NCBI GenBank assembly: GCA_000403255.2
Contig: KE159593.1
Span: 129,969-193,968, forward strand
Direction: 5' to 3'
Source: Lachnospiraceae bacterium 3-1
Lineage (GTDB): Bacteria > Bacillota > Clostridia > Lachnospirales > Lachnospiraceae
Length of the DNA stretch: 64,000 bases
Under the pieces are notes generated by a model that worked only from the letters and a program-made list of their open reading frames with translations, was not told where the DNA came from and searched no databases. This document shows, piece after piece, positions 10,681-52,408 of this stretch; within the stretch, counting starts at the first letter, position 1; the number at the start of each line of letters is the position of its first letter. A program made the translations under genes and the position numbers.

Positions 10681-10749
10681 TGCCGTTTTCTGCAAAAACA
10701 GGTCGCTTTCTGCAAGGGATATTGAATTATTCAAGAAAATTATTAGAAT
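10681..10749 (+). promoter_or_regulatory. LytTR-type box-pair promoter P1 (HNH toxin)
   Basis: Box 1 (CCGTTTTCTGC) and box 2 (CGCTTTCTGC) repeat at exactly 20 bp (CTGC at 10690 and 10710). A -10 TAGAAT follows at 10744-10749, 34 bp after the second CTGC. There is no good -35, as expected for activator-dependent promoters. It shares this geometry with nine others here. Confidence 0.8.
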
Positions 10750-10805
10750 ATATTAAAATACAGATAATTTCATAAGTTATTTTTATTGAATAGGAGGTGA
10801 ATCCG

Positions 10806-10814
10806 ATGGTTTGA
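10806..10814 (+). other. Two-codon leader ORF with strong ribosome site
   Basis: TAGGAGGT at 10791-10798 is correctly spaced for ATG 10806, which is followed by one codon and a TGA stop. It lies in the leader made from P1, 118 bases before the toxin start. It might modulate leader stability or toxin translation; this is inference from position only. Confidence 0.35.
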
Positions 10815-10931
10815 ATTAGGCTGTGTATTCATAAACATAAAAACACAGAAGATTATAGTGAAAAAAGTACAGGTCTTGTTCTTGTATGTGTATTATAATC
10901 ACTGATAACAAAATTGAAAGAGAGGTATTTT

Positions 10932-11828
10932 ATGATTAAGAAACATTTCACAAAAATCTTATGTTTAGCTTTATCGCTCATAATGGTCATGAGCATGGGA
11001 ACATCTGTATTTGCGAGCGAAACCGATGATAATGGTAGTATTCCTGCTGTCGAAGATACAGCTATTTTCACTAGCGATACGTTTTTCTACAATGCCGAAA
11101 CTGGCGAAACCGTTGCCGAAAATGGTGAACCATTTGCTTTTGATGATATTGAATTTGAATTTGAAGAGTCTGAAAGCCAAGATGGTATATCTACGGCAGA
11201 TGTATCAATCGAGATTTATTTGCTTCGTGGAGGATTGAAAAGAACCAGCAATGGAACATTTACATGGTGGTTTAATACTGATTGCCCAACATCTCCGATT
11301 AATAAACCTAATATTAAAGTGACTGCACAGTTACAGGGAAATTTCACTACAGGTTCGACATTTTCAAATGTTGGAAGTCCTGTATATCATACTTATAATA
11401 CAAATGCCGAGTATGGAATTGATTATACATGGACAAGCACTGCGAAAACAGGTTACTATCGTATCAAATTTACACTAACGGATTATGATGCTGGCGGTAA
11501 AGTTCAATCTGCTAATACTAATTCACAACTTTGGAATAGAACAGGTCATGCATGGACTTTTTCATTTAGTGATAGTGCTAGTGGAAAATACTTGCCTAAA
11601 CCGCCAGCAAACTATACAAAAGGAGCTACATCAACACGTCCATCAAATCTAGCTGATACTTATTATACTACATATACGAACAATACAGGGGTAACCCTAA
11701 ATCGTTCTTTATATGATGTTCATCATATTCAGCCATTAGCTTATGGCGGCAATAATAGCTATAGTAATCTTATTCATCTGCCGAAAGCAACACATACAAG
11801 TGTGACAAGTTGGTGGGCTGGATATTAA
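10932..11828 (+). CDS. Secreted HNH nuclease toxin (bacteriocin-like)
   Basis: A 298-residue exported protein with a Sec signal peptide ending near VFA-SE (residue ~28), an acidic N-terminal region to about residue 85, a beta-rich middle, and a compact C-terminal nuclease: HHIQPLAYGGNN from His264, then NLIHL and a His288 (ATHTS). This is the HNH pattern seen at the C-terminus of polymorphic toxins and colicin-type nucleases. I chose ATG 10932 after AGAGAGG rather than the TTG at 10914. A cytoplasmic-looking gene follows within 15 bases and is the presumed immunity partner. Sec export of a nuclease, without LXG or WXG sequences, is unusual. Confidence 0.8.
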   Translation: MIKKHFTKILCLALSLIMVMSMGTSVFASETDDNGSIPAVEDTAIFTSDTFFYNAETGETVAENGEPFAFDDIEFEFEESESQDGISTADVSIEIYLLRGGLKRTSNGTFTWWFNTDCPTSPINKPNIKVTAQLQGNFTTGSTFSNVGSPVYHTYNTNAEYGIDYTWTSTAKTGYYRIKFTLTDYDAGGKVQSANTNSQLWNRTGHAWTFSFSDSASGKYLPKPPANYTKGATSTRPSNLADTYYTTYTNNTGVTLNRSLYDVHHIQPLAYGGNNSYSNLIHLPKATHTSVTSWWAGY

Positions 11829-11843
11829 GAAAGGAAGATTCCA

Positions 11844-12359
11844 TTGAGCAACGAGTACGAAAAATTTCAAAAACTGAAAGTAGATACCTCGTGTATTGGA
11901 TTGGCTCGTGAAGAAAATTCTAAATATTTTTGTACTCCAATAGGAGCAACTATAATCGGGTGGGATAATGGAATACATTATATTTTTATAAAAGGTTTTG
12001 ATGAAATGGTTTTTGCTGTAAATCCGGATACTGTTTGTGACTATTATGTGTACCCATTAGCTAATAATTTCTCTGACTTCTTAAGTCTTGTACTTGCAAC
12101 AAAGGGAACTAATACATTACAACAAATTATTCAATGGGATAAACAGCAATATATGGATTTTTCCAGTTCTCCTGATGAAGTTGAATATGCTTCTAGCAAA
12201 AAGGTTATAGAAGCATTGGAAGCAATACGCTCAATTGGGGTTTTGCCAATGGAAAACCCTTTTGAGTATGTAAAAAAAATACAAAATAGTTTTCAGTATT
12301 CAAAAATAGTTTTTAGCGATGAGTTTTATGATATTACAGGGCAAGAGAAGTTAAACTAA
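11844..12359 (+). CDS. Putative immunity protein (SUKH/SMI1-like) for the HNH toxin
   Basis: A 171-residue cytoplasmic protein with no signal peptide. The pattern of aromatic residues and the segment YPLANNFSDFLSLVLATKG (residues ~71-90) resemble SMI1/KNR4-superfamily immunity proteins, which commonly sit right behind nuclease toxin genes. The TTG start at 11844 follows AAAGGAAG. Assignment rests on gene order and weak family resemblance. An alternative is an unrelated accessory protein of the toxin. Confidence 0.6.
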   Translation: MSNEYEKFQKLKVDTSCIGLAREENSKYFCTPIGATIIGWDNGIHYIFIKGFDEMVFAVNPDTVCDYYVYPLANNFSDFLSLVLATKGTNTLQQIIQWDKQQYMDFSSSPDEVEYASSKKVIEALEAIRSIGVLPMENPFEYVKKIQNSFQYSKIVFSDEFYDITGQEKLN

Positions 12360-12601
12360 TTGCGAATATAACTAGAAAACTGCGGTTATCTTATTTTAGT
12401 TTTAACCTATAAGTCAATTTAGAAAGAACCTTCAGGATATGAAATTGAACTTTAGTGAATTATTGAATATGAAGGAAATGGAAAAACTGATTTCATAAAC
12501 AAATCGGTGTCCGTTATGACTGGAAAGGCTAATAGCGGAAAAATCCCCTTGAATCAGATGGTGATTGTTCAAGGGGATTTTTTATCTCTATAAATAGATA
12601 C
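12360..12601. other. Intergenic stretch with micro-ORF and terminator
   Basis: This stretch contains a possible 19-codon frame (12439-12498, leader-like sequence with KLNFSELLNM and EMEKLI) preceded by a weak AGGA, and ends in a strong terminator. The peptide ends in a stop directly after the leader-like part and may be a relic. Confidence 0.35.
12541..12584. terminator. Strong bidirectional terminator
   Basis: AAATCCCCTTGAA (12541-12553) pairs perfectly with TTCAAGGGGATTT (12568-12580), flanked by A and T runs. It separates the toxin/immunity unit from the convergent minus-strand gene. Confidence 0.88.
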
Positions 12602-13372: not shown

Positions 13373-13394
13373 AAAAAACACTCCTTTATGATTT

Positions 13395-13460
13395 ATTTTA
13401 CTTGATATAAATGTAATTTTGCAATACATTAAGCAGAAAATGACAATATTAAGCAGAAAA
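13395..13460 (-). promoter_or_regulatory. LytTR-type box-pair promoter P2 (minus strand)
   Basis: Read on the minus strand, ATTTTCTGC occurs twice at 20-bp spacing (13460-13453 and 13440-13433), with -10 TAAAAT at 13400-13395, 36 bp past the second box. It drives the alpha-CTD-like gene. The start codon is only ~15 bases after the predicted start of transcription, so the leader is very short. Confidence 0.72.
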
Positions 13461-13534: not shown

Positions 13535-13601
13535 CCGTTTTCTGCAATAATGAACCGTATTCTGCAAAGGAAATTGAAGATTTTGTATGTTTTGGTATTA
13601 T
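13535..13601 (+). promoter_or_regulatory. LytTR-type box-pair promoter P3
   Basis: CCGTTTTCTGC and CCGTATTCTGC repeat at 20 bp (CTGC at 13542 and 13562) with -10 TATTAT at 13596-13601, 34 bp after the second. It drives the secreted protein at 13670 and is divergent from P2. Confidence 0.78.
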
Positions 13602-13669
13602 ATAGTTGTTCATGTATTGCAGCCACATAAAAGAATATATTATCATGTTTTGTAAGGAGGTATTTGGAA

Positions 13670-14880: not shown

Positions 14881-14947
14881 GCCGTTTTCTGCAACAGAAG
14901 GTCATTTTCTGCTATGAATATCCGTTTTGTGCAATTAAAATTACAGA
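14881..14947 (+). promoter_or_regulatory. LytTR-type promoter P4 with a possible third box
   Basis: CCGTTTTCTGC and TCATTTTCTGC repeat at 20 bp (CTGC at 14889 and 14909). A degenerate third copy, CCGTTTTGTGC, keeps the same 20-bp phase at 14929. A weak -10 candidate (TACAGA, 14942) fits the common spacing. It points toward the HTH gene at 15039. Confidence 0.6.
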
Positions 14948-15316: not shown

Positions 15317-16087
15317 CTATCCAATTGATAACAAATTCTTTATTGCTACTGAAAATGAATTTGAAGATGAAATCTGCTGTCTTAATTTCTGCTCATCACA
15401 TGCAGGGATTTGTGAAAGCAGGCTGACTTTATGTTTTTTCCAGAGCATAGCGGCTTTTTTTTCAGGCAGGATCTCAAAGATAAATTTGTCCTCCCAGTTA
15501 TTAAATGCAATTCCATTCTCTCTTAAAATAAAGTAAATTCGCATGGTAAGGCTGTAATCTTCCTGACATATATGGTATAAGTCCTTAGCTGTTTTATGTT
15601 TAAAGTCGTCCATGCAGGATATATTGTACTGGAACAGCAGGGGGTAGATTTTTTGGGGGAACTGGTATTTATCAAAATACTCTTTGATGGATAACATTGA
15701 CCGTATTTCAATATGATACGCCCTACAGATCTGTTCCAGCTCTATTGCTGTTTTTTCTCCTAAATTTCTAAAATGCAGGATTCTTTCTTTGGGATAGGAA
15801 GAAAGCTGCGAAAGATACATAACGCCATTTTGTATAAGGGCATTTTGTAACCGCTTTGACATAGAGACATCATAAACTGATATTTCGTCGCTTGGCGGTA
15901 ACAGATGACCTAATGCGTTTAATTCGTTGATTATGGGTTCTAAATTAAAATTCTTGGGGAACTTGTCTATCAGAGTGATATAGTTTTGCCCTTCCAGTTC
16001 TGAAACCTTTGTCAAACCTACGCTTTTCAGGGCAGCTTTGGCAGCAGCAGAAATATTTAGGTCTTGTATGTTCATATCTAATATCAT
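15317..16087 (-). CDS. RNA polymerase alpha-CTD-like helix-hairpin-helix protein, copy B
   Basis: A 256-residue paralog of the gene at 12602-13372, similar along its whole length (EGQNYITLIDKFP, LLPPSDEISVYDVSMSKRL, FRNLGEKTAIELEQICRAYHIE). It shows the same tandem alpha-CTD-like modules with the NLG turn near residue 107. The start is uncertain: ATG 16087 lies very close to an AAAGGAG, ATG 16075 matches the paralog's N-terminus best, and the frame opens at 16111. Unlike copy A it has an ordinary promoter (TTGTAT-16-TATACT, near 16123-16151) and no box pair, so the two copies are expressed differently. Confidence 0.75.
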   Translation of the reverse strand: MILDMNIQDLNISAAAKAALKSVGLTKVSELEGQNYITLIDKFPKNFNLEPIINELNALGHLLPPSDEISVYDVSMSKRLQNALIQNGVMYLSQLSSYPKERILHFRNLGEKTAIELEQICRAYHIEIRSMLSIKEYFDKYQFPQKIYPLLFQYNISCMDDFKHKTAKDLYHICQEDYSLTMRIYFILRENGIAFNNWEDKFIFEILPEKKAAMLWKKHKVSLLSQIPACDEQKLRQQISSSNSFSVAIKNLLSIG

Positions 16088-16111
16088 TGCTCCTTTATTT
16101 TGGGGATTCAA

Positions 16112-16480
16112 ATAGAAACAATCCTAGTATAACACTTTTTCCGAAAAATACAAACCTGAAAAGGACTAATATGGGTTCGGAAAATAAAATTATGATTATT
16201 TCATGCTAATAAGTAAGTAAAGATATCTATAATCACTTATTTATTAGTGTCAAAATCTGCATAAACAGGTCATTTTCTGTAATTTAATTGACTAATGCGT
16301 TAAAGGGAAATAAAATGAAAGGGCTAATTCATACTGTTTTTGGCATGTCGTATTTCTTTACTATGAATATAGGTGGAGGATTAAAGATTTCGGCACGATA
16401 TGTCGAAATACAAGCTAAAGGAAGTACGATACTTCAGAGACAGGCTACCATTAGATTATTGAGAGGGGAGGGAAAAATGG
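16112..16480. other. Divergent promoter region of system 1 regulator
   Basis: This gap holds the minus-strand promoter of alpha-CTD-like copy B, a 12-bp inverted repeat with one mismatch (16207-16246) without a T tract, the P5 box pair, and a ~160-nt leader for the LytTR regulator. No convincing gene is present. Confidence 0.6.
16252..16316 (+). promoter_or_regulatory. LytTR-type box-pair promoter P5 (autoregulation of regulator 1)
   Basis: A degenerate box 1 (AAAATCTGC, CTGC at 16257) and box 2 (TCATTTTCTGT, 16277) keep the 20-bp period, with -10 TAAAAT at 16311-16316 exactly 34 bp further. It lies ahead of the LytTR regulator gene, the autoregulation typical of agr systems. Confidence 0.7.
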
Positions 16481-17206
16481 ATGTTCAGAATTGCTATATG
16501 TGATGATGAGAGTTTATTTACAGAAGAATTAGAAAGACTGATTTCCAGTTATATGATGGAAAAAGGGCTGGTCTTTAAAATAGATGCATATGGCTCTGGT
16601 GAAGCATTGGTAAACTTGGGGATAGAGGTGGTGCGTTATACTGTCGTTTTTTTAGATATTAACATGGACAAGATTGATGGGATCAGGACGGCTGAAAAGA
16701 TTAGGAAGGTAAGCAGGGATATACTTATTGTATTTGTGACAGCATATGTGAATTATTCTTTAGAAGGCTATCGGTTAGATGCCGTCCGGTATTTATTAAA
16801 AGGCAATGCTAACTTTCAGAGTACAGTGAATGAGTGTATGGATGCCATTATGGATAAACTGAATTATTCAGTTGCAAAAAAAGAGTTTGAGTTTAAGGAG
16901 GGGACAAAGAAAATATCATTAGAAAGATTGTTGTATATTGAGAGCAATCTGCATAAATTGGAGTTTCATATTATGGAAGATGATATGATGGTATATACCA
17001 CATATGGAACATTGAATACGTTAGAGGAAGAACTGGCAGAAAATGGTTTTATAAGGATACATCAAAGCTACCTTGTAAATCAAAAATACATAGAGAATGT
17101 CAAAAGATATAAAGTTGTATTGACAAACGGGGTTGAATTATCTATACCAAAAGTAAGGTATACATATGTAAAGGAGCAGTTTATATTATATCAGGGAGAA
17201 GTTTAA
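16481..17206 (+). CDS. agrA: AgrA-like LytTR response regulator, system 1
   Basis: A 241-residue regulator. The receiver domain (1-120) has the acidic pocket Asp8-Asp9, the phospho-acceptor Asp59 in VFLDINMD, and Thr in VFVTAYV; the LytTR DNA-binding domain occupies about 137-238 (ERLLYIESNLHKLEF, GFIRIHQSYLVN, LSIPKVRYTYVKE). ATG 16481 follows GGGAGGGA; an overlapping ATG at 16477 is in another frame. The stop directly abuts the kinase start. LytTR domains bind pairs of ~9-bp direct repeats about two helical turns apart, which fits the TTTTCTGC pairs found throughout the cargo; that match is my inference. Confidence 0.9.
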   Translation: MFRIAICDDESLFTEELERLISSYMMEKGLVFKIDAYGSGEALVNLGIEVVRYTVVFLDINMDKIDGIRTAEKIRKVSRDILIVFVTAYVNYSLEGYRLDAVRYLLKGNANFQSTVNECMDAIMDKLNYSVAKKEFEFKEGTKKISLERLLYIESNLHKLEFHIMEDDMMVYTTYGTLNTLEEELAENGFIRIHQSYLVNQKYIENVKRYKVVLTNGVELSIPKVRYTYVKEQFILYQGEV

Positions 17207-18508
17207 ATGTCTGATTTAGTGGTGGAAATTTTAATATTATTTTTTGAAGTGTTATGTAGCAAAATCTTCTGTGAAATATTTGGAAAAGTGAGGAATAAGG
17301 GCTGGATCAACATAGTTCAGCTATTTGTCCTTGAAATCAGTGTATTTATAATGGCAAGGACATTTTCAAATGTAATGATTTTAAAACAAATAGTGGTGGC
17401 ATCAATATATGCCGGGGTTATGTTATGGCATGTGAAGATAAGTATAGGAAAGTCGTTTGCACTGGGGCTGTTGTATCAGGCGATGCTGTTGTCAACGGAT
17501 TATCTCGCATACTCTATTAACAAGGAAATATGTTCAGGCAATGAGCTGACAGGAAAACAGTATAATTTAGAGAATGTTCTTGTAATTCTACTTGGAAGAG
17601 CAATATTATTTTTAGGCGTTATCATTATAAGAAGAAAAATTGGAAAAAAGTCAATCGAGGTATTATGTGACACGGATTGGTTAAAATTGTTGGTTTTTCC
17701 TATATTTACGATAGTTATCATAACTTCAATGCTTTCATTCTTTAAAAATGTTGAAACAACTGACCAGATCATGCTGGTGTTTGTAGGTGCTTTTGGAATG
17801 ATTGGAATGAATATTGTGGTATTCTATTTAATCAACGATATTGCGGAGAGGGAAACAAAGTTATATGAGCATAGAATTTTCCAACTCCAGGTCAAAAGCC
17901 AGACAGAAATGTATCGGTCAATATCAGAAAATTTTGACAAACAGAAAAAGAAAACACATGAGTATAAAAATCAAATTGATTGCATTGAACAGCTATTGAA
18001 TCGAGAGCAGTATTCAAAACTGGAAGAATATGTAAAAGCGGTGCATGGGAGACTTGATAAGGAACTGGATGCTATTGATACGAATAACATAATAGTGAAC
18101 GCAATTTTAAATACAAAGTATCAGGAAGCAGATACAAACGGGATTGTTGTTGTGCTGCGTGTAAACGATTTGTCTGGTGTGTGGATGAAAGACGAAGATA
18201 TTGTTACAATATTATCTAATCTGCTTGATAATGCGATAGAAGCGTGTAAAAAATGTGATGACGGAAAAAGAATATTGAAGTTGAAATTTGTTAATGAAGA
18301 TGGAATGATAAAGATCGGAGTTAAAAATACATTCAGTAATCCGATTGTATATGAGAATGGGGAAATAAAATCTACAAAATTGGTACAGGCAGAGGAACAT
18401 GGAGTAGGAATCAAAAATATTATTGAAGTCATTGAGAAGTATGGCGGATCATATATCATAAAGGATGATAATTATGAGTTTTATTTTTCAATAATTATTC
18501 CTGCCTGA
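17207..18508 (+). CDS. agrC: AgrC-like sensor histidine kinase, system 1
   Basis: A 433-residue quorum-sensor kinase. The N-terminal half has about six membrane segments (to residue ~220). The kinase part has the H-box KKKTHEYKNQID (~245), the N-box ILSNLLDNAIEAC (~340) and the G-box EHGVGIKNI (~400) of the HPK10 group, whose members sense cyclic peptides. The start follows GGGAGAAG and abuts the regulator stop. It is predicted to sense the AgrD1 peptide and phosphorylate the regulator encoded upstream. Confidence 0.9.
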   Translation: MSDLVVEILILFFEVLCSKIFCEIFGKVRNKGWINIVQLFVLEISVFIMARTFSNVMILKQIVVASIYAGVMLWHVKISIGKSFALGLLYQAMLLSTDYLAYSINKEICSGNELTGKQYNLENVLVILLGRAILFLGVIIIRRKIGKKSIEVLCDTDWLKLLVFPIFTIVIITSMLSFFKNVETTDQIMLVFVGAFGMIGMNIVVFYLINDIAERETKLYEHRIFQLQVKSQTEMYRSISENFDKQKKKTHEYKNQIDCIEQLLNREQYSKLEEYVKAVHGRLDKELDAIDTNNIIVNAILNTKYQEADTNGIVVVLRVNDLSGVWMKDEDIVTILSNLLDNAIEACKKCDDGKRILKLKFVNEDGMIKIGVKNTFSNPIVYENGEIKSTKLVQAEEHGVGIKNIIEVIEKYGGSYIIKDDNYEFYFSIIIPA

Positions 18509-18555: not shown

Positions 18556-18625
18556 TGCCGTTTTCTGCTGTAAAGTGTCCACTTTCTGCAAAGGATATTG
18601 TTTTATTTCGTTTTTTCTTTATACT
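18556..18625 (+). promoter_or_regulatory. LytTR-type box-pair promoter P6 (agrBD1)
   Basis: TGCCGTTTTCTGC and CCACTTTCTGC repeat at 20 bp (CTGC at 18565 and 18585), with -10 TATACT at 18620-18625, 35 bp on. It precedes agrB and agrD, giving the positive feedback loop expected of quorum sensing. Confidence 0.82.
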
Positions 18626-18649: not shown

Positions 18650-19234
18650 ATGGTAGAAAAGATAGTAATGCAGTTAGTAACTCAAATGGAGGAACGAAAA
18701 ATAATTGAAAAATCCAGCAGAGATTATTATGAATATGTTTTGATAACTTTGGCAGAACATATTATTGCGGTTGGAACCATGCTGATAATCGGTATGCTTT
18801 TTAATCAATTCATAGCAACGATTATTTTTCTGGTATTTTTTCTTTCATTGAGAAAACGAACCGGGGGTTATCATGCAGATAAATTCTGGCAGTGCTATCT
18901 TGCGACAATCATAACTTATATTGGAATTATTCAGGTGGCTGCAATCTTATCGGAAAAGTCTTATATTATGTGTGTAACACTGTTTTTTGCGGTGCTTATC
19001 ATTGAGATTATAGGAACCGTAAATCACCCTAACATTGATATGGACAAGGACGAATTGCAGGAAAACAAAAAGTCAGCCAGATTACTTGTATTGATGGAGG
19101 CAGCAGTAATAATTTTATTGGACATCTTGGGGATGAACCAGCTCTATGTAAGTTATATGTCAATCGCTATCATATTGTGTTCGCTTCTGATGTGCGTAGC
19201 AAAATTATTGAAACAGGAGGTAAAGGTAAGATGA
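18650..19234 (+). CDS. agrB: AgrB-like peptide processing/export protein, system 1
   Basis: A 194-residue membrane protease that trims AgrD and forms the cyclic peptide. The family signature RKRTGGYHADKFWQC (residues ~62-76) supplies the His and Cys catalytic dyad, and NHPN lies near residue 125. Five to six hydrophobic segments are visible. ATG 18650 follows AAAGGAGGG. The gene overlaps the start of agrD by four bases, so they are coupled. Confidence 0.92.
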   Translation: MVEKIVMQLVTQMEERKIIEKSSRDYYEYVLITLAEHIIAVGTMLIIGMLFNQFIATIIFLVFFLSLRKRTGGYHADKFWQCYLATIITYIGIIQVAAILSEKSYIMCVTLFFAVLIIEIIGTVNHPNIDMDKDELQENKKSARLLVLMEAAVIILLDILGMNQLYVSYMSIAIILCSLLMCVAKLLKQEVKVR

Positions 19235-19380
19235 AGAAAACAGAAAAGATTACAAACAAGGTATTGAAGGTAGTGGAGAGAATTGCCCGGAATGAAGTGG
19301 AAAAAACAGTTCTTGGCAGGACGGCGGAGTGTTCAGCGATTTATCACCAGCCGAAAAGACCGAAGAAAAGGGAAAACTAA
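19231..19380 (+). CDS. agrD: AgrD-like cyclic autoinducer peptide precursor, system 1
   Basis: A 49-residue peptide starting at ATG 19231, which overlaps the agrB stop and follows an AGGAGGTAAAGGT ribosome site. It has an amphipathic N-terminal helix (residues 5-25), then the predicted core CSAIY at 34-38 and a charged tail starting HQPKRP. By comparison with AgrD2 (core CMYCL, tail HQPKQP), AgrB should cut before the HQPK and close a five-residue thiolactone ring on Cys34. Ring size is inferred. Confidence 0.85.
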   Translation: MKKTEKITNKVLKVVERIARNEVEKTVLGRTAECSAIYHQPKRPKKREN

Positions 19381-19607: not shown

Positions 19608-19877
19608 GTGACAGTATCAAATAAAAGTATAGAAGATAAGTTGGATAGAGTTTTTACTGAAAAGTTCGGCTGTAGTGCAGATAAAGTTGAAATGATGAGA
19701 GAGCATAGATTTCTGTCAAGTGAAATAGGTTTTTCTGCTGCTAATCTTTTAGAATTATTTATAGAAGTGGAAAAAGAGTTTGGAATTATTTTTTCAAAGG
19801 ATGAAATATTGAGTACGCAGTTTGACGACTATACAGAATTAGTAGAAGGAATTAACAAAAAGCTAGGAGGAGAATAA
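19608..19877 (+). CDS. Acyl-carrier-related protein of peptide cluster 1
   Basis: An 89-residue protein with the acyl carrier protein fold pattern: SSEIGFSAANLLELFIEVE then KEFGIIF. Ser43 sits where the phosphopantetheine serine lies in acyl carrier proteins, but the usual Asp before it is Phe, so modification is uncertain. It resembles the acyl-carrier-related family (TIGR04069, from memory) that accompanies CLI_3235-type Cys-rich peptides. The GTG start at 19608 follows AAAGGAGAT. It is the first gene of cluster 1. Confidence 0.75.
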   Translation: MTVSNKSIEDKLDRVFTEKFGCSADKVEMMREHRFLSSEIGFSAANLLELFIEVEKEFGIIFSKDEILSTQFDDYTELVEGINKKLGGE

Positions 19878-19879
19878 TT

Positions 19880-20704
19880 ATGCTTGGTGCAAATGTTGGA
19901 AATATAGGAGTAAATCCATATAGGAACTCCTATACAAGTTCTATACAAAATAAGAATAATGAAAAAGTATCGGAATCTTTTTCAGATAAAATTGTGGGAA
20001 CAATTGAAAATAGTGGCGTTACAGAATCAAGTGCTATGAAGTTTCCTGGGGACATGACAATTAATTATCCACCGAATTTAGCTAAAGTTTCAAATAGTTC
20101 AGTTGGTGGAAAATCCAAAGGTGAAATGACGTTGGATGAGTATAAGCAATGGGTTATGAATGAAATATCCCAAATGCCCGTTAGCGGATGGGCTCGTTCT
20201 ACATACTCATCGGGAGCAATTATAATTAAAGAAGAAGCTTTTGAAAGAATGAAAATTGATCCAGAGTATGAGGAATATGTTTTGAATCGGGTACGTTCAG
20301 CATGTTCGGTTCAAGGTATAACCGGATGTTCAAACTATGTTGGTTATGATGTTATTGGAGCATCGCCGGAAGAATGTTATGGTTATGCAGGTCCAGCGGG
20401 GGGGAGCAGTTTAGAAAATGTAAGTGACGGGGAAACTTGGTGGGAGAAACGCCATAAAAAGATAAAGGAATTGCTTGAAGAGCAAATTGAAAAAAGTCAA
20501 AAGGAGCAATTAGCAAGACGCAAACAAGCAGAAGCTGAATATATAAGTCAGGTATATGCAAGCCGACAGAGAATGTCAAATTTGTTACATAAATCTAATA
20601 CTGGCAGTGATAATATTGCTGTTCTGCCTTTGATGACAACAGCAGCTTCTGCTTATGAAAAAAATGTTGAAGTGTTGTCAGGTGAAACAATTAAAAAATC
20701 TTAA
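19880..20704 (+). CDS. DUF6033-like helical protein of peptide cluster 1
   Basis: A 274-residue protein of unknown function. It has a Ser/Asn-rich N-terminus without signal peptide, a central region (residues ~70-150) and a Lys/Glu/Gln-rich helical C-terminus (190-235). The segment AIIIKEEAFERMKIDPEYEEY matches the cluster 2 protein at 26858 (ISASVVERMATDPQTAEKY), and both proteins occupy the position just before a Cys-rich precursor gene. Pairing of this family with the precursor in both clusters suggests a chaperone, carrier or co-secreted role. The central part contains extra cysteines and Gly-rich SPEECYGYAGPAGGSS. Confidence 0.65.
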   Translation: MLGANVGNIGVNPYRNSYTSSIQNKNNEKVSESFSDKIVGTIENSGVTESSAMKFPGDMTINYPPNLAKVSNSSVGGKSKGEMTLDEYKQWVMNEISQMPVSGWARSTYSSGAIIIKEEAFERMKIDPEYEEYVLNRVRSACSVQGITGCSNYVGYDVIGASPEECYGYAGPAGGSSLENVSDGETWWEKRHKKIKELLEEQIEKSQKEQLARRKQAEAEYISQVYASRQRMSNLLHKSNTGSDNIAVLPLMTTAASAYEKNVEVLSGETIKKS

Positions 20705-20715
20705 AGATTATAATC

Positions 20716-20739
20716 AAATTATTGTTTACATAATAATTT
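20716..20739 (+). other. Intercistronic AT-rich hairpin before precursor 1
   Basis: AAATTATT (20716-20723) and AATAATTT (20732-20739) form an 8-bp stem 36 bases before the precursor start. It could protect or process the precursor mRNA. Confidence 0.4.
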
Positions 20740-20774
20740 TGTTTATAAAATATTCATGAAAGGAGGATATGACA

Positions 20775-20963
20775 ATGAAAAAAACATTAGGAAAGAAAAA
20801 TTCAGTAAGTAATGGTACAGTAATGTCCTTTGCTTGCAACTGCATGTCTGTTTGCGGTATTGGTTGCTCATGTGGCACTACAGACGCATATACCACGCAG
20901 GTCCAGAATTTGGCAAAGGTCGTATCTAGTGGAATGCAGATGTCAACATGGTCTTCTATGTAA
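20775..20963 (+). CDS. Cys-rich precursor peptide 1 (CLI_3235-like)
   Basis: A 62-residue peptide beginning MKKTLGKKNSVSNGTV, a leader shared with precursor 2, followed by a core with Cys21, 23, 27, 31 and 33 and a Ser/Thr-rich tail. It is placed right before a radical-SAM maturase, as in the CLI_3235/CcpM-type systems of clostridia (families recalled from memory). ATG 20775 is eight bases after GGAGG; the ATG at 20769 is too close. The likely modification is thioether (sactionine-type) cross-linking of Cys residues. Confidence 0.82.
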   Translation: MKKTLGKKNSVSNGTVMSFACNCMSVCGIGCSCGTTDAYTTQVQNLAKVVSSGMQMSTWSSM

Positions 20964-20991
20964 TTTTTTTGAAAGACAGTGAATTGACAGG

Positions 20992-21026
20992 ATACAGCGA
21001 TAGGATAGCCTATCGCTGTATTTTTA
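20992..21026 (+). terminator. Attenuator after precursor 1
   Basis: ATACAGCGATAGG (20992-21004) and CCTATCGCTGTAT (21009-21021) form a perfect 13-bp stem with a 4-nt loop and a T5 tail. Partial read-through would give excess precursor relative to the maturase genes downstream. Confidence 0.85.
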
Positions 21027-21057
21027 AAAAATATAATTTTGGAGGAAGGATAATGTA

Positions 21058-22455
21058 ATGCAAAAAAATGATTTTTTTATTCATACATTTAGAACATTAA
21101 ACTCATGTTATTTGTATGATGTTAATATAAATTCTATAATTAGAATAAATGAATCCACCTATAATATATTGAAAAATGAGCAAGAGATTCCAAATGGAGA
21201 TATAAGAATTAGCAAATTGAAGGAACGTGGTTTTTTGCAACCAATAGATAGAAACTTCCAGATTGAGCATCCTTTAACAGATAAAGTGGAAAGCTATATA
21301 CAAAACAATTTATCTCTTTTAATATTGCAGGTTACACAAAATTGTAATCTGAGGTGTAAATATTGTGTTTATTCGGGTAGCTATGTTAATCGTGTTCATA
21401 CAAATAAACGCATGAATTTTGAAACAGCAAAACAAGCGGTGGATTTTTACTACAATCATAGCAAAAATATTGATATTGCTTCAATAAGTTTCTATGGGGG
21501 AGAACCTTTATTAGAATTTGAGCTCATAAGGAATATTGTGGAATATTGTGAAATGAAATTTAGTGGTAAACAATTAAATCTCAATATGACTACTAATGCA
21601 ACATTATTAACAAATGAGATGATGGATTTTTTACAGGTACATAAAATTAATTTAACAATTAGTTTAGATGGGCCAGAAGAAATACATAATAAAAATCGTG
21701 TTTTTGCCGATCATACAAAAGGTACATTTGCAAAGGTTTTAGATAATTTGAACAAATTCCAGCAATTATATCCAGATTATGTAGATACAATTAGCTTCAA
21801 TGCTGTATTTGACGAAGAAAATAATTTTAAAATAAGTAATGACTTCTTTTCTTCAGATTTTATGAAGAAAGCAGACGTGACATTTACAACGGTCAGTGAA
21901 CGTGATGCGAAAGAGTATAAAGACATACAAGAAGAATTTGTTATAAACTACAAATACGAGTTGTTTAAAATGTTTTTGTTTTGTATTGGAAGATTGGAGC
22001 AAGAAGATGTTTCAAAATTGTTGTCAGCACATATTAATAAGTTAAAACAAAGCGTGCATGAACATTTGAAAAAGCCTTTCATTTCAAATGGAAAAACGTA
22101 TCCAAGTGGACCATGTATTCCAGGTGTCAATCGCCTATTTGTTACTGTAGATGGAGAATTATTCCCATGTGAAAGAGTTAGTGAAACGAATTATGCATAT
22201 AAAATAGGTAGTTTGGAAGATGGTTTTTATCTTGATAAAGTTAAAGAACTATTAAACATTGCTCAATATACTAAAACACAGTGCAGTTCATGTTGGGCAA
22301 TGGGTTATTGTGATGGATGTGCATCAGATATGAGTGACGGAGATAAATTAGTTGCAAAGAAGCGATTAGAGAGGTGCGCATCTATGCGTTTTACGGCAGA
22401 TGAAATGATGAAGGAATATTGTGTACTAAGAGAGAATGGATACAATTTTGAATAA
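21058..22455 (+). CDS. Radical-SAM/SPASM peptide maturase 1 (CcpM-like)
   Basis: A 465-residue iron-sulfur enzyme expected to modify precursor 1. The N-terminal ~85 residues resemble the peptide-recognition region of such maturases. The radical-SAM motif CNLRCKYC uses Cys96, Cys100 and Cys103, followed by SFYGGEPLLEF and a C-terminal SPASM region with many Cys (FPCERV, CSSCWAMGYCDGC, RLERC). It is closely similar along its length to the cluster 2 maturase. ATG 21058 follows GGAGGAAGG. It is the first gene after the attenuator. Confidence 0.9.
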   Translation: MQKNDFFIHTFRTLNSCYLYDVNINSIIRINESTYNILKNEQEIPNGDIRISKLKERGFLQPIDRNFQIEHPLTDKVESYIQNNLSLLILQVTQNCNLRCKYCVYSGSYVNRVHTNKRMNFETAKQAVDFYYNHSKNIDIASISFYGGEPLLEFELIRNIVEYCEMKFSGKQLNLNMTTNATLLTNEMMDFLQVHKINLTISLDGPEEIHNKNRVFADHTKGTFAKVLDNLNKFQQLYPDYVDTISFNAVFDEENNFKISNDFFSSDFMKKADVTFTTVSERDAKEYKDIQEEFVINYKYELFKMFLFCIGRLEQEDVSKLLSAHINKLKQSVHEHLKKPFISNGKTYPSGPCIPGVNRLFVTVDGELFPCERVSETNYAYKIGSLEDGFYLDKVKELLNIAQYTKTQCSSCWAMGYCDGCASDMSDGDKLVAKKRLERCASMRFTADEMMKEYCVLRENGYNFE

Positions 22456-22472
22456 ATGAAAGGAAGAAAATT

Positions 22473-23540
22473 ATGAGAACATTGGTATATCCATATGATG
22501 AAGACTTTGAGGCAGTCATTAAGTATGGCGATTTTATTGAGACAATGGAAATAAGAGAGATTTTGTCTCCAGTTGGATGGGGATTACAAAATAAGAAAGT
22601 GGGAGAAAATATTCCAATAAAAACAAATATAAATGCTGTTAATTGGGAACGAATTGATGCATTATTGTTAATTGACACAATCAGAACGAATTTACATATA
22701 AATGAAATTTTGGAAGTGGTTAAATTATCTGCAAAATTTGTACAAAAGATTATTTTAAATAGGGACATAGATGAAAAATCATATGCATGTATAGAAGATA
22801 TATGTTCAAATGAAAAAGTAGCATTGATAGATGTTAGGAGACAAACTCAATTACGAGTTTCAGATAATAAACAGTTAAAGTCGATTTATACACCAGTAAT
22901 AGTTGTTGCGGGTATGGGAGAATGTTGTAATAAGCTGGAAGTTCAAATGTTTATAAAACGATATTTGAATAAATTAGATTATAATGTATGCGTGGTTTCT
23001 TCCAGAAAAAATATGGAAATAGTGGGTTTACATTCTTTTCCAACATTCATGTATGGGAATCAAATTGATGAGTCTGAAAAAATTATTGGATTTAATCATT
23101 ATATAAAGGAGTTGGAAATTGAAGAAAATCCCGATATAATTCTAATTGGAATACCGGGAAGCATTATGCCCATATCTGAAAAACACTCCGAGTTTTTTGG
23201 GGTTTTCGCTTTTGAAGTTTTTAATGCAATTAAAAGTGATATGTTATTGTTCTGCATACATAACAATATTTATACTAATGAATATTTTGAAGAATTAAAG
23301 AAATTGTGTAAATACCGTTATCAGGCAGATATTGACGCTATTATAATATCGAATCATTCATACGATTCACTTTCGTTGCAAACAGAAGGGACGATCAAAT
23401 ATCTTTCTTTTGACGATGAAGAGGTTGATAGGTATAGAGCCAGCTACCCAGATGATGTTTATAGCAGAGCTATGTATGAAAAACTTGCTGAACATGTGAT
23501 AGAAACATTATCTGAATACGCAGATTTTCAAGTGATGTAA
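22473..23540 (+). CDS. Peptide-maturation partner protein 1 (TIGR04066-like)
   Basis: A 355-residue cytosolic protein. The N-terminal half begins RTLVYPYDEDFEAVIKY and EILSPVGWGL; the second half has an alpha/beta pattern (PVIVVAGMGECCNKLEVQ, ILIGIPGSIMPISEKH) that resembles a nucleotide-binding fold without a clear Walker motif. Its paralog lies at 29265. From memory this is the TIGR04066 family tied to Cys-rich peptide maturases; the function is unknown. Its C-terminal domain is also fused to the S8 protease encoded next. Confidence 0.72.
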   Translation: MRTLVYPYDEDFEAVIKYGDFIETMEIREILSPVGWGLQNKKVGENIPIKTNINAVNWERIDALLLIDTIRTNLHINEILEVVKLSAKFVQKIILNRDIDEKSYACIEDICSNEKVALIDVRRQTQLRVSDNKQLKSIYTPVIVVAGMGECCNKLEVQMFIKRYLNKLDYNVCVVSSRKNMEIVGLHSFPTFMYGNQIDESEKIIGFNHYIKELEIEENPDIILIGIPGSIMPISEKHSEFFGVFAFEVFNAIKSDMLLFCIHNNIYTNEYFEELKKLCKYRYQADIDAIIISNHSYDSLSLQTEGTIKYLSFDDEEVDRYRASYPDDVYSRAMYEKLAEHVIETLSEYADFQVM

Positions 23541-23556
23541 ATAAAAGGATAAATTG

Positions 23557-24999
23557 GTGAAACAATTGAATGATGAACAAATAGCAATAATTGATAATGG
23601 AATAAGTGGGAAAATTGTTGGAATAGATAAAATACAGTCTAAGATTTTTGTAGATGATGACAATAATTGCAAGGAGGATTATGTTGAAATTCAAATTACA
23701 GAATTTCAACATGGGACTTTATGTGCATTAATTGTTAAAAAATACAATCCTCACTGTACGTTGAATAGTTTAAGAATTTTAGATAAAGACGGTAATGGAA
23801 GGATTGAAAAAATAGAACCTGCATTTGAATGGTGTTATCAGAACAATATAACGATTGTTAATTTAAGTTTTGGAACTACAAACTTTAATGAGTATGAAAA
23901 GTTAAGAAATTTGGTTAATAAGTATGTGAATAATGGTTTGATTATTGTGGCGGCAACTGCTAATTCGGGTTTTGTGACATATCCGGCTAGTTTAACAAAT
24001 GTAATTGGTATAGCAACAACAGATAGCCCTTTAAATTATTTTAAGGATTATATGCAGATGGGAATTGATTCGGTTGTTCCATCTGAACATATTGTTAAGA
24101 TATGTGACATAGAAACAATAACATCATTAAGTAATAGTTATGCTGCGCCATATATATGTGCTTTGATTGCAAATAAACTAAACAATGACAAAACTCTTGA
24201 TATAGTAAAATTAAAGAGATATGCAAAAGAGCAAAGCCATATTGAAATGACAGTGGAGGGTTATGAGCCGGATTGGATTTACAGGGCGTATATATCGGGC
24301 AGAGGAACTATGAGCAGGGCAGAGTATTATTTTGAAACAGTTACAGGGGCGTATGATGAAATACAGGGGAAAGCAGATACGGTAATAGCCTATTCTATGG
24401 CAGAATTAGGAAATTTGGATATAAGAAATAAGAACTTAATATATCTTGGAAATGAGGACATTCATAATATAGATGTTCAAGGATTCATTTGGAGCAGGGA
24501 AACAAGGCAACGGCAAATTGAGCATAATTATTATCAGGGAAATGGTCTTGAAGTTCCGGTAGTGATACTGGCAGTGGAAGATGTTATAGATAAGTTCTAT
24601 GTACTCACAGAACTAAAGAGGGCATTTGCCAATGGCGGTTATAACGCATATACAATAGGAATGGAGCCGGAGAGTGTATTATATGCATTAGAATATATGC
24701 CGGAGCCGGTATCAGATATTGATGCTTGGAAAAATTTTATAGAGAGCCAGACTTTTTATAAACAGAGTGATTTGGTCATATGGTGCGTTCCAGTGGAAGA
24801 ACAAGATAAATATTTGAAAGTATATCCTGATTGTGATGTGCAGATCAGTCTTTGCAATGAGGGAAATATAAATATTATTCAGTTCTCTTTTGAAGGAGAA
24901 AAGATTGAGAAAAAAATATCTGGACTGATTGACAGAAAAGATGTTGAGGAAATATATCATATTATAGAAGCGAAACTGACGGAGGAAGAAGATGGATAA
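23557..24999 (+). CDS. Subtilisin-like S8 protease fused to a maturation-partner domain
   Basis: A 480-residue two-part protein. The N-terminal half is an S8-type serine protease with a complete triad: Asp13 (IAIIDNG), His52 (QHGT), oxyanion Asn136 (AATANSG) and Ser194 (SNSYAAP). There is no signal peptide or propeptide, so it acts inside the cell. The C-terminal half (EVPVVILAVEDVIDKFYVL onward) resembles the second half of the neighbouring maturation protein. The fusion suggests leader removal coupled to the maturation complex; the neighbouring ABC exporter has no peptidase domain. Start GTG 23557 is 7 bases after AAAGGAT. Confidence 0.8.
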   Translation: MKQLNDEQIAIIDNGISGKIVGIDKIQSKIFVDDDNNCKEDYVEIQITEFQHGTLCALIVKKYNPHCTLNSLRILDKDGNGRIEKIEPAFEWCYQNNITIVNLSFGTTNFNEYEKLRNLVNKYVNNGLIIVAATANSGFVTYPASLTNVIGIATTDSPLNYFKDYMQMGIDSVVPSEHIVKICDIETITSLSNSYAAPYICALIANKLNNDKTLDIVKLKRYAKEQSHIEMTVEGYEPDWIYRAYISGRGTMSRAEYYFETVTGAYDEIQGKADTVIAYSMAELGNLDIRNKNLIYLGNEDIHNIDVQGFIWSRETRQRQIEHNYYQGNGLEVPVVILAVEDVIDKFYVLTELKRAFANGGYNAYTIGMEPESVLYALEYMPEPVSDIDAWKNFIESQTFYKQSDLVIWCVPVEEQDKYLKVYPDCDVQISLCNEGNINIIQFSFEGEKIEKKISGLIDRKDVEEIYHIIEAKLTEEEDG

Positions 25000-26698
25000 C
25001 AAAGAGGCTGTAAAAAGATTACTTCTGTTACTAGGCAGATACAAAAAAACAATAGTTGTAATTGTCGGCTGTCTGCTTGTTTCTACCGGGTTAAATCTAT
25101 GTGTTCCGCTGATCAGCAGGCGGATCATGGACGATGGCTTTATTGGTGGAAATAAGAAATTATTGATAGAGCTGGTCTTGGCGTCTATGGTAATCTACAC
25201 TATAAATTCCCTCATAGATATAGTTAAGGAAAAGAAACGTGTAGATATTTCAGCAAAGATACAATATTTTCTTTCGGAACAGTCTTTTTCACATCTTATG
25301 AAGCTGCGGGTAAACTATTTCAATAACACAAATTATGCGGAGACTTTGAATAATATCAACATGGATATTAACCAGATGACATCTATTGCTGACAGCAGTG
25401 TTTTTTTCGTAATTACGCAGACGTTTAGCATGACAGGCGGCATAATAGGTTTATTCATAATAGATTTCAGAATGACGGTACTGGTTCTTCTGTTTATACC
25501 TATTAAGTGTGTGGTAATGAAATACTTTGCAAAAAAGCAAAAACAGATTATGGACGAGTTCATAAAAAGGAATCAGGAGTACGCTAAATGGTTTGGAGAT
25601 ACCGTTGGAGGGGTACGGGAAGTCAAGCTGTTTAATATCTTGGATAAAAAGCATGAGGAGTTTGAGTTTAATCAGAACAATATTATAGAGAAACAAAAGC
25701 AGATGAATATGTTAGGGCAGTGGAATACGATAACAGATAGTATCATGGTACAGTTTCTTTCCACATTATTATACATACTGGGCGCAAATTTAGTGTTTGA
25801 TATGAAACTTTCAGTAGGCAGTGTGTTCGCTTTCATTACATATAGTGCTTACGTTACCGGACCGATTTCTGCAATCCTAAATATAGGATACCTGTTATCA
25901 GGGATTATTCCGTCAACAAAAAGATATTATGCGTTTATGGAATTGGAGGAAGAAACGGATAATGGAAAGAAAACGGATCTATGTCCAAATGATTTGAGAT
26001 TGCAGAAGGTTTCTTTTGCGTATGAAAGGGATAAGTGCATTTTAAAGAATATTGATATATTATTTGCAAAATGCAGCAAGACAGCTATAATCGGGCGCAA
26101 TGGTTCGGGAAAGACAACAATCATCAATCTTCTTACGAGAATGTATGAGCCGACAAGCGGTGAAATACTGTTGGGAGCAGAAAATATTTCAGAGCTGCCA
26201 TTGCCAGAATACCGAAATATGGTATCTGTTGTGAGCCAACAAATCTACTTATTCAATGACACAATAAAGAATAACATCTGTCTGTATAAACAAATAGATG
26301 ATACAGTGATAGAAGCTGCCTGCAAGGACAGTGGACTTGAAGATTTTATAAACGAGGTTTCCTTAGATCATGTGGTAGGGCAGAATGGGGCAATGCTCTC
26401 CGGCGGGCAAAAGCAGAAAATAGCCCTTGCAAGGGCATTGGTGCATGACAAGCCGATTATTTTATTTGATGAAGCTACTTCAAACACAGATGCTTATTCA
26501 GAACAGCAAATAAACGGACTGCTTGATACTCGGCTAAAAGACAAAACAGTGATAGTGATAACACATAAGAAAGAAATATTGAGCAAAGTGGATCAGATCG
26601 TTGTACTGAAGGAGGGAGTGGTTACAGCTTTAGGGAGATATGATGATTTGATAGGGAAAAGTGATGAACTAAATGTTATGTTGGAAAAAGCAGAATAA
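24992..26698 (+). CDS. ABC exporter, peptide cluster 1
   Basis: A 568-residue fused permease-ATPase half transporter. About five to six membrane segments occupy residues 15-300. The ATPase has Walker A GRNGSGKTT, signature LSGGQKQKIA and Walker B IILFDEATSNTD. There is no N-terminal C39 peptidase, consistent with a separate S8 protease. The start overlaps the protease gene by eight bases. It probably exports the mature cluster 1 peptide and perhaps the cluster 2 peptide, which has no exporter of its own. Confidence 0.88.
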   Translation: MDNKEAVKRLLLLLGRYKKTIVVIVGCLLVSTGLNLCVPLISRRIMDDGFIGGNKKLLIELVLASMVIYTINSLIDIVKEKKRVDISAKIQYFLSEQSFSHLMKLRVNYFNNTNYAETLNNINMDINQMTSIADSSVFFVITQTFSMTGGIIGLFIIDFRMTVLVLLFIPIKCVVMKYFAKKQKQIMDEFIKRNQEYAKWFGDTVGGVREVKLFNILDKKHEEFEFNQNNIIEKQKQMNMLGQWNTITDSIMVQFLSTLLYILGANLVFDMKLSVGSVFAFITYSAYVTGPISAILNIGYLLSGIIPSTKRYYAFMELEEETDNGKKTDLCPNDLRLQKVSFAYERDKCILKNIDILFAKCSKTAIIGRNGSGKTTIINLLTRMYEPTSGEILLGAENISELPLPEYRNMVSVVSQQIYLFNDTIKNNICLYKQIDDTVIEAACKDSGLEDFINEVSLDHVVGQNGAMLSGGQKQKIALARALVHDKPIILFDEATSNTDAYSEQQINGLLDTRLKDKTVIVITHKKEILSKVDQIVVLKEGVVTALGRYDDLIGKSDELNVMLEKAE

Positions 26699-26748: not shown

Positions 26749-26817
26749 TGCCGTTTTCTGCAAAAACAATTCATTTTCTGCAAGGGTAATTGTATTTGTT
26801 TAAAAGTCTGTTATCAT
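26749..26817 (+). promoter_or_regulatory. LytTR-type box-pair promoter P7 (peptide cluster 2)
   Basis: TGCCGTTTTCTGC and TTCATTTTCTGC repeat at 20 bp (CTGC at 26758 and 26778), with -10 TATCAT at 26812-26817, 34 bp on. It drives the DUF6033-like gene and cluster 2. Confidence 0.82.
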
Positions 26818-30685: not shown

Positions 30686-30754
30686 TTCCGTTTTCTGCAA
30701 AAACAGTTCATTTTCTGCAAAGCTAATGTTATGACTGCAAATATTTGATATGAT
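30686..30754 (+). promoter_or_regulatory. LytTR-type box-pair promoter P8 (putative small RNA)
   Basis: CCGTTTTCTGC and TCATTTTCTGC repeat at 20 bp (CTGC at 30695 and 30715), with -10 TATGAT at 30749-30754, 34 bp on. No protein gene starts close downstream. Confidence 0.8.
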
Positions 30755-33387: not shown

Positions 33388-33455
33388 ACCTTTTTCTGCA
33401 ATATAAAGCCTTTTTCTGCGAAGATAATGTTGCCGAAATATATTTTTGCTATTAT
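33388..33455 (+). promoter_or_regulatory. LytTR-type box-pair promoter P9
   Basis: CCTTTTTCTGC and CCTTTTTCTGC repeat at 20 bp (CTGC at 33396 and 33416), with -10 TATTAT at 33450-33455, 34 bp on. It lies ahead of the small gene at 33592. Confidence 0.76.
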
Positions 33456-48526: not shown

Positions 48527-48566
48527 TTTCCTTTATATATAAAAATAGAACAATCGGTATTTATTA

Positions 48567-49757: not shown

Positions 49758-49796
49758 TGCAAGTATTAAAGGTTAAGTAGCGGAATGGAGATTTAT

Positions 49797-51653: not shown

Positions 51654-51692
51654 ACAGTCTGAAATAATATTAGATTTCAGACTGTGTTTTCT
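51654..51692. terminator. Bidirectional terminator after cluster 3
   Basis: ACAGTCTGAAAT (51654-51665) and ATTTCAGACTGT (51674-51685) form a perfect 12-bp stem with T-rich flanks, between convergent genes. Confidence 0.85.
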
Positions 51693-51918
51693 ATTTTTCA
51701 TCAGGGGGATTATATTCCAGTAGATCAGCAATGGAACAATTTAATGTCCTGCATATTCGTACTAGTACTTCCGTATCTAATCGTGTAATGGTATTATTGA
51801 TATATCCATTTAGCTGAGAACGTTGAATTTCTGCTTTTTGACAGAATTTGTTTTTGCTTAAACCAGATTCTTTAAGTAGTTCGCCTAAGTGAATTTTGAT
51901 ACTTCCGTTTTGACTCAA
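51691..51918 (-). CDS. XRE-family HTH regulator
   Basis: A 75-residue one-domain repressor: IKIHLGELLKESGLSKNKFC, then QRSQLNGYINNT as recognition helix and CRTLNCSIADLLEY. The TTG start at 51918 follows GGAGGTACAA. It is divergent from the Spo0A-like gene, and a TGTCGAA Spo0A-type box overlaps its ribosome-site region. It lies right behind peptide cluster 3 and may control either neighbour. Confidence 0.8.
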   Translation of the reverse strand: MSQNGSIKIHLGELLKESGLSKNKFCQKAEIQRSQLNGYINNTITRLDTEVLVRICRTLNCSIADLLEYNPPDEK

Positions 51919-51930
51919 TATTGTACCTCC

Positions 51931-51996
51931 TGTCGAAAAGTGTCATAATAAGTAGACACAAACTGTTTGACTAGTTAAGTATACATTAGTTAAAAT
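51931..51996. promoter_or_regulatory. Divergent promoter with Spo0A-type box
   Basis: TGTCGAA lies at 51931-51937 between the HTH start and its promoter. On the plus strand TTGACT (51967-51972) and TAAAAT (51991-51996) with an 18-bp spacer form a good promoter for the gene at 52058. Confidence 0.6.
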
Positions 51997-52057
51997 TGAT
52001 ATATCAGTTATAAGAAATTATAGATAAGAAGTTATAGTACCTGAAAGGAGAAAGAAA

Positions 52058-52300
52058 ATGAGTGAGAGAACTGCTAAAGATGCAATTAAAAAAATTGCCA
52101 AAAGAGAAGGAAAAAGTGAAAGTGAAATAAGGCAGGAAATGGAGAAAGCTATTATGATAGGTTTTTTGAACAAGGGGACAAGAAATATGTGGGATAATCT
52201 GTTTGGAGTAGGGAAGTTGCCAAGCCCGGAGGAATTTATTACAGTATTATCAATGAACGTAGGAAAAAAGAAGAAGTGGGATAAAAAGGCGTATTTTTAA
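52058..52300 (+). CDS. Spo0A C-terminal-like small DNA-binding protein
   Basis: An 80-residue protein whose sequence (AIKKIAKREGKSESEIRQEM, EKAIMIGFLN, MWDNLFG, PSPEEFITVLS) follows the small Spo0A C-terminal-like helix-turn-helix proteins of Lachnospiraceae; it lacks a receiver. ATG 52058 follows AAAGGAG. It may bind Spo0A-type boxes, one of which lies in its own divergent promoter region. This reading is from family memory. Confidence 0.65.
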   Translation: MSERTAKDAIKKIAKREGKSESEIRQEMEKAIMIGFLNKGTRNMWDNLFGVGKLPSPEEFITVLSMNVGKKKKWDKKAYF

Positions 52301-52338
52301 AAAACAGTTTGATTATTCAATGTGGTAAAATCGTTTGT

Positions 52339-52408
52339 GTCCGTTTTCTGCAATAAAGTGCCACTTTCTGCAACCTCTATTGTAAGTGAATTGATTGTTT
52401 GATATATT
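52339..52408 (+). promoter_or_regulatory. LytTR-type box-pair promoter P10 (secreted two-protein operon)
   Basis: TCCGTTTTCTGC and CCACTTTCTGC repeat at 20 bp (CTGC at 52348 and 52368), with -10 TATATT at 52403-52408, 35 bp on. It drives the operon 52564-54144 and its leader. Confidence 0.8.

Follow-up and report, generated by a model that had tools for sequence, protein, structure and literature searches.

Paired boxes beside an Agr-type system in a Lachnospiraceae genomic island are probable operators of its LytTR regulator

In the plantaricin (pln) regulon of Lactiplantibacillus plantarum, several operons of one locus carry tandem repeat pairs directly upstream of their -35 and -10 elements, the LytTR-type regulators PlnC and PlnD are autoregulated, and the cargo operons vary between strains (PMC2714321). 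Here we describe a 42-kb island of similar construction in a stretch of 64,000 nucleotides from Lachnospiraceae bacterium 3-1 (contig KE159593.1, positions 129,969 to 193,968, indexed as G000:C23:129969-193968 and hereafter called the window; the genome comprises 5.08 Mb in 27 contigs), in which pairs of the box TTTTCTGC stand around the genes of an Agr-type system, agr system 1. We propose, at a probability of roughly 0.85, that these pairs are the operators of its response regulator AgrA1, as the end point of an autoregulated Agr-type peptide quorum-sensing circuit. One cell-to-cell signal would then probably switch toxin-like, peptide-making and secreted-protein genes of the island together, a shared control suggested by the paired box before about ten promoters and by its genome-to-genome company with the regulator.

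The pln locus resembles the island in holding several paired-repeat promoters in one place, with a LytTR regulator, autoregulation and variable cargo. Its repeats are 9-bp TACGTTAAT elements with a 12-bp spacer and a period of 21, whereas the island boxes have a period of 20, sometimes 21, and do not match the plantaricin-type pattern; unlike pln, the island encodes an AgrB/AgrD pair. PlnA is a linear pheromone with a double-glycine leader. In Clostridium perfringens, VirR boxes are direct repeats 7-8 nt apart, immediately upstream of the -35 and on the same helix face (PMC2838878), one of them drives the regulatory RNA VR-RNA (PMC4877802), and CCCAGTTATTCAC starts a pfoA primer (PMC2706048). 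Compared by layout, the VirSR system, with its Agr-like AgrB/D, shares with the island the repeat pair beside the -35 and a box-driven RNA (in the island a candidate), but its sites, by the cited account, are few in number and spread through the genome, whereas the island boxes are packed beside agr genes. The sequence CCCAGTTATTCAC, which we take to be VirR box 1, and the island's TTCTGCA have TTnTnCA in common.

Staphylococcus aureus AgrA acts at P2-P3, where direct repeats lie upstream of promoters with a non-optimal -35/-10 spacer, the promoter-proximal repeats centred at about -60 (PMC4227749). AgrA1 has in common with it the LytTR domain, the direct repeats with, presumably, their approximate position, and the non-optimal spacer, the spacer being 18 and 20 in P2-P3 and usually 16 in the island. 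The classical S. aureus AgrA site is ACAGTTAAG, from which the island box differs in sequence, and agrA1 falls below the cut-off of the S. aureus AgrA equivalog NF046049 (52.6 bits against 400). The HdrRM and BrsRM systems of Streptococcus mutans have direct repeats mostly 12 bp apart near the -35, autoregulation and bacteriocin targets (PMC6193735); this layout recurs in the island, but they use a membrane inhibitor protein where the island has a kinase and AgrB/D. In Clostridium acetobutylicum, Agr controls the RiPP-synthetase-like CA_C0082 next to agrCA (PMC10301443), a single adjacent target in that account, which names no operator, as against many in the island, with RiPP-type targets near agr in both. 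Among the open-licence papers listed by our searches, none dealt with this box or with an AgrA regulon in Lachnospiraceae. Set against these accounts, the architecture is known, and the operator sequence and its lineage are new.

Box pairs and promoters in the window

An initial annotation of the window had described direct box pairs exactly 20 bp apart at ten promoters. All ten places carry a pair, of which five are exact TTTTCTGC-N12-TTTTCTGC repeats (at 13460 on the minus strand, 14885, 26754, 30691 and 33392) and the others are degenerate to varying degree; the annotated coordinates began some 3-5 bases ahead of the 8-mer, which starts, for example, at 10686 rather than 10681. The five exact pairs, all N12 in a search permitting N10-14, stand against an average of 0.01 over 100 dinucleotide-shuffled sequences. 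Single mismatches occur in the pairs at 10686, 13538 and 52344, with a 20-bp period, and at 18561, before agrB1, with a 21-bp period; the pair before agrA1, at 16253, reads AAATCTGC/TTTTCTGT, with four mismatches, and less degenerate pairs precede agrA in several relatives (clearer ones in loci L129, L132 and L133). The site at 14885 is a triple, with a third copy, TTTTGTGC, at 14925. Nine of the ten pairs are followed by a promoter, with a -35-like hexamer 15-18 nt and a -10 hexamer 38-41 nt past the start of box 2. The -10 hexamer lies 30-33 nt past the end of box 2 at these nine sites, and they show the LytTR direct-repeat layout, in which two repeats, some two turns of the helix from each other, stand shortly before the -35. 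We grade the window sites as eight strong, one weak (agrA1) and one doubtful (14885). Neighbouring sites have flanks in common, such as CCGTTTTCTGCAAAAACAG.

The pairs before agrA1 and before agrB1D1 are present as annotated, and lie within a plus-strand cluster that encodes an AgrB, an AgrD precursor, a GHKL kinase and a LytTR regulator together. The cluster consists of agrA1 (16481..17206), a response regulator with receiver and LytTR domains and the putative box binder; an agrC1-like sensor kinase with a GHKL domain (17207..18508); agrB1 (18650..19234; PF04647, 121 bits); and agrD1 (19231..19380), a 49-aa precursor with a Cys...HQPKRP tail (TIGR04223, 23.2 bits, cut-off 19). AgrD-like peptides with a C...HQPK-type tail occur in about 29 listed loci, a tail that the search pattern itself requires, and the residues around their cysteine vary. 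A second agr set occupies 33960-37367, with AgrB2 (33960-34529, minus strand), a GHKL kinase, LytTR2 (35872-36615) and, on the other strand, an AgrD-like peptide (37221-37367).

Genome-wide, exact pairs number five, every one inside the window, and TTTCTGC-N12..15-TTTCTGC occurs 12 times, eight of them in the window cluster. We scored promoters at ten off-window near pairs in eight regions, setting aside the copies of the contig C6 sequence on C10 and C21 and most two-mismatch matches, and obtained 4-8 of 12; nine window pairs score 8-10, and 14885 scores 5. Every one of the ten off-window pairs falls within an open frame of at least 85 codons; since three window pairs overlap frames too, we dropped frame location as a discriminator, and it is the promoter, not the frame, that separates the two groups. 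A three-mismatch scan of the genome (365 matches against 116 for the reversed pattern) was left unused because the reversed pattern differs in base context, and generic direct-repeat promoter finders proved too noisy, so that a core-specific scan with permuted controls was used instead.

Company of the boxes with AgrA1 across genomes

We compared 397 family genomes, defining a strict pair as TTTTCTGCAA-N10-TTTTCTGCAA with at most one mismatch and an AgrA1 ortholog by at least 50% identity (at most seven candidates scored per genome; the tallies of 13, 10 and 6 genomes, and 89/112 below, are hand counts). Strict pairs occur in 16 genomes and an ortholog in 13, with both in 10, which amounts to 10/13 genomes with the ortholog against 6/384 without it (Fisher p = 9e-14). 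In the three genomes that have the ortholog but no strict pair, degenerate sites follow agrC, ahead of the next gene: a two-mismatch pair ahead of agrB in G321, a AATTCTGC pair followed by a gene other than agrB in G108, and in G171 a single box before agrB in the first copy and two pairs in the second (45%). In a set of ortholog-bearing genomes, 23 of 23 (22 distinct, one being the near-identical Eubacterium sp. 14-2) carry pairs, with 118 matches against one for a reversed control. Among 112 matches, 89 share a contig with the AgrA1 ortholog and lie within about 43 kb of it.

Over window bases 1-62091, the pieces compared match Eubacterium sp. 14-2 at 100% identity; locus L115 (genome G397) duplicates the window over the same bases, and G407 is the contig of G268. 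Both duplicates are present in the 23-genome set and in the 40-locus set used below, and the 112-match tally omits G407 and keeps G397, which adds eight.

Related loci come from Petralouisia muris and from Lachnospiraceae and Eubacterium metagenome-assembled genomes. The 40 loci around AgrA1 orthologs, partly non-independent (L115 repeats the window, L125 repeats L096/L097), hold 136 pairs, against 0-10 in all but one of 30 permuted-box draws, the exception (CTGCTTTT) giving 21. Among 105 distinct sites, all found with one mismatch allowed, core conservation comes partly from the selection, which did not act on the promoter positions. The flanks read [CT]C[AG] ahead of both boxes and AA behind box 2; the TTG of the -35 falls at exactly +16 in 74 sites, and in 70 sites the best -10 is found at +37..41, which makes 16 the usual -35/-10 spacer. 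In a looser scan that required a promoter, the period was 20 in 91 of 114 sites and 21 in 23. Box centres would lie near -46 and -66 if transcription starts 7 nt past the -10.

Where the regulator shares 38-61% identity, at least one scored TT[CT]TGC pair is present in 15 of 29 loci, and in 12 a pair lies at agrA and/or behind agrC, the agrB position. Among 120 orderings of the core applied to these loci, the true order gives 22 pairs, five overlapping orderings give 14-19, and the other 114 give 0-4. The box evidently fades in AgrA1 orthologs below 50% identity.

Several observations weigh against AgrA1 as the reader of the boxes. The pair at 14885 lacks a promoter where the other sites have one, open frames of at least 100 codons overlap with three of the window pairs, and one off-window near pair scores 8 of 12, as high as the weakest sites of the window. 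Fourteen of the 29 loci with 38-61% regulators have no scored pair, and 23 of the 112 matches lie off the agrA contig, some of them on short contigs of fragmented assemblies. Six genomes, moreover, have a strict pair without an AgrA1 ortholog of at least 50%. Five of these were inspected, G027 being left out: G111, G037 and G270 have no promoter at the pair, G284 has a promoter-like site within an open frame, and G076 has a convincing site together with a 40% relative of AgrA1.

The boxes might instead belong to LytTR2 or another LytTR protein, since LytTR proteins share a site type and the genome holds 31 LytTR matches, which makes cross-regulation possible there. LytTR2 sits in the same island, and G076, G111 and G284, which have a box and no AgrA1 ortholog, each hold a 39-40% relative of it, a further point against AgrA1; G144 holds such a relative too. 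A LytTR2 ortholog of at least 50%, however, occurs in just two of the 23 genomes (the own genome and G321), and the boxes track AgrA1 orthologs and flank agrA and agrB, so that we regard this assignment as improbable. Still less credible is a reading by alpha-CTD-like proteins, which resemble the C-terminal domain of the RNA polymerase alpha chain. The alpha-CTD fold binds DNA, one such gene is divergent from agrA1 and another stands under a box, but these proteins are found in only four of the 23 genomes and in four of the 16 strict-box genomes. Just as remote is the idea that the pairs mean nothing for regulation and arose as copies of some repeated element or as leftovers of duplicated promoters: clustered pairs do share flanks, but the inter-box and downstream sequences vary while the box, its period and its distance to the -35 stay, and unrelated genes follow.

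The comparative evidence favours control by agr system 1, as the initial annotation had inferred; the fit is doubtful at 14885, where the promoter geometry is missing, and weak at agrA1.

Genes under the boxes

Box pair 1 (10686..10713, plus; -35 TTGAAT, -10 TAGAAT) lies upstream of a secreted protein (10914-11828) with a weak C-terminal HNH match (HNH_4, E 4e-4, below the Pfam cut-off), followed by a 171-aa protein without a Pfam match (11844-12359); 10914-12359 is a possible toxin-immunity pair. Box pair 2 (13433..13460, minus; TTGCAA, TAAAAT) precedes an alpha-CTD-like gene (12602-13429), and box pair 3 (13538..13565, plus; TTGAAG, TATTAT) a small secreted protein (13664-14143). Box pair 4 (14885..14932 with the third copy, plus) is situated between divergent genes for a DUF3879 protein (14257-14826) and, by eye, an XRE-like protein (14988-15272). 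Before the latter, the palindrome GGACTGAAATCAGTCC at 14955-14970, which L116 retains and which differs in L117 and L119, is a possible repressor site.

Box pair 5 (16253..16280, plus; TTGACT, TAAAAT) precedes agrA1, and box pair 6 (18561..18589, plus; TTGTTT, TATACT), itself preceded by a terminator-like hairpin at 18513-18550, stands before agrB1. Assuming a continuous operon, the agrB1 promoter possibly also reads the plus-strand genes at 19608..26698, which encode an ACP-like protein (by eye), a CLI_3235-type bacteriocin precursor (20769-20963), a radical-SAM enzyme, an S8 peptidase and an ABC exporter. Box pair 7 (26754..26781, plus; TTGTAT, TATCAT) precedes DUF6033, radical-SAM, unknown and ACP-like genes (26858-30619); box pair 8 (30691..30718, plus; -10 TATGAT) follows just after a terminator-like hairpin at 30642-30685; box pair 9 (33392..33419, plus; -10 in a TATAAA region) lies upstream of an unknown protein (33541-33963); and box pair 10 (52344..52371, plus; TTGTAA, TATATT) precedes a gene at 52564-53244 and perhaps 53262-53927, both of which, by eye, encode secreted proteins.

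At 93 of the 114 sites in the looser scan, an open reading frame (ORF) preceded by a ribosome-binding-site-like stretch lies downstream; the other 21 lack one. The commonest target is agrB (22 sites), and agrA follows at nine, one triple being counted twice, so that the autoregulatory sites seen in the window recur elsewhere. A single-linkage group with the DUF6033 protein stands under the box at nine sites, an alpha-CTD-like gene at eight, the unknown family of 33541-33963 at four and XRE at three, with 24 targets seen once; in L101 a peptide like CLI_3235 in sequence is under a box.

Both alpha-CTD-like paralogs of the window (12602-13429 and 15317-16111) match RNA_pol_A_CTD. The second (15317..16111, minus) is divergent from agrA1, a linkage kept in the close clade: its type lies divergent from and less than 700 bp from agrA in the own genome and 11 others (G268, G276, G029, G398, G399, G400, G401, G406, G410, G411 and G414), with a fragment in one of two loci of G406, and 4 kb from agrA in G408. 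It was not found near agrA in L120, L121, L123, L128, L131, L132 or L134, and L122 and L135 hold little upstream DNA; broken or fragmentary alpha-CTD-like copies lie near agrA in L097, L117, L124 and L125. A predicted model (pLDDT 75, pTM 0.50, 11 sequences) has repeated helical units, which in our reading of the helix pattern may form four modules. Against the PDB the model had no match at E 0.001 (best 0.007), and the matches listed are nearly all RNA polymerase alpha chains, such as 1z3e_B (TM 0.87 when normalised by target length; 62 columns at rmsd 1.0).

Box pair 8 leads into a candidate small RNA or attenuated leader (30762..30904, plus, about 143 nt from a putative start) with a terminator-like hairpin at 30863-30898. 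The distance from putative start to hairpin end is 86-143 nt in six genomes (own, G398, G029, G410, G268 and G276), the -10 being at +38 in all six and the T-run lacking in G029; the consensus fold is the hairpin only, and attenuator and small RNA are equally possible. By eye the leader contains no convincing ORF, and a coding origin was set aside; in two segments of the ORF after it, from about 30913, third-position changes are mildly over-represented. Rfam returned no family at gathering score. Farther on, 31014-31130, before an XRE gene at 31169, is nearly invariant in 11 copies and holds a second terminator-like hairpin and TGTCGAAA motifs, which presumably resemble Spo0A boxes.

Elsewhere in the window, a RumC-family sactipeptide precursor (48258-48482; NF035950, 99.8 bits, cut-off 40) belongs to a cluster at 46657-51584 with a radical-SAM enzyme, an M16-type peptidase and an ABC transporter; it has no upstream pair within three mismatches and is left out of the regulon count. 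Three consecutive ORFs of 558-566 aa fill 56956-61976, the first a large serine recombinase, and an element boundary may be near 62091, where the match to Eubacterium sp. 14-2 stops. A phage or plasmid home for the island was unsupported in the one element test made, which gave four phage records (metagenomic 'Bacteriophage sp.', best 75%) and no plasmid match; a viral scan gave no relative.

A putative circuit with exchangeable cargo

In the circuit that we propose, AgrB1 would turn AgrD1 into a cyclic peptide, which the kinase at 17207-18508 would sense, phosphorylating AgrA1. AgrA1 would bind both half-sites, which lie some two turns of the helix from each other and shortly before the -35, and recruit RNA polymerase, presumably activating rather than repressing. 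With agrA1 and agrB1D1 among its own targets, the circuit would have positive feedback, and its exchangeable targets would include radical-SAM peptide clusters, a possible secreted nuclease and its partner, secreted proteins, an alpha-CTD-like protein and the candidate small RNA. Synteny forms a mosaic, in which the agr core is common to the window, G398, P. muris and others and the intervening blocks are swapped; the comparison indicates that the agr core and the operator stay in place as the cargo turns over.

More speculatively, and on balance doubtfully, the agrA-linked alpha-CTD-like proteins may be a dedicated, regulon-encoded mimic of the polymerase alpha-CTD, acting on the boxed promoters of AgrA1 as co-activator or feedback competitor, and the 30762 leader an effector RNA like RNAIII or VR-RNA; if true, this would be a quorum-sensing circuit carrying its own polymerase-mimic layer. 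The box itself would make the operators of peptide quorum sensing in gut Lachnospiraceae legible as a code, from which quorum-sensing targets such as peptide clusters and toxin-like genes may be listed from sequence, and, with a constant operator and exchangeable cargo, the evolution of such islands becomes testable.

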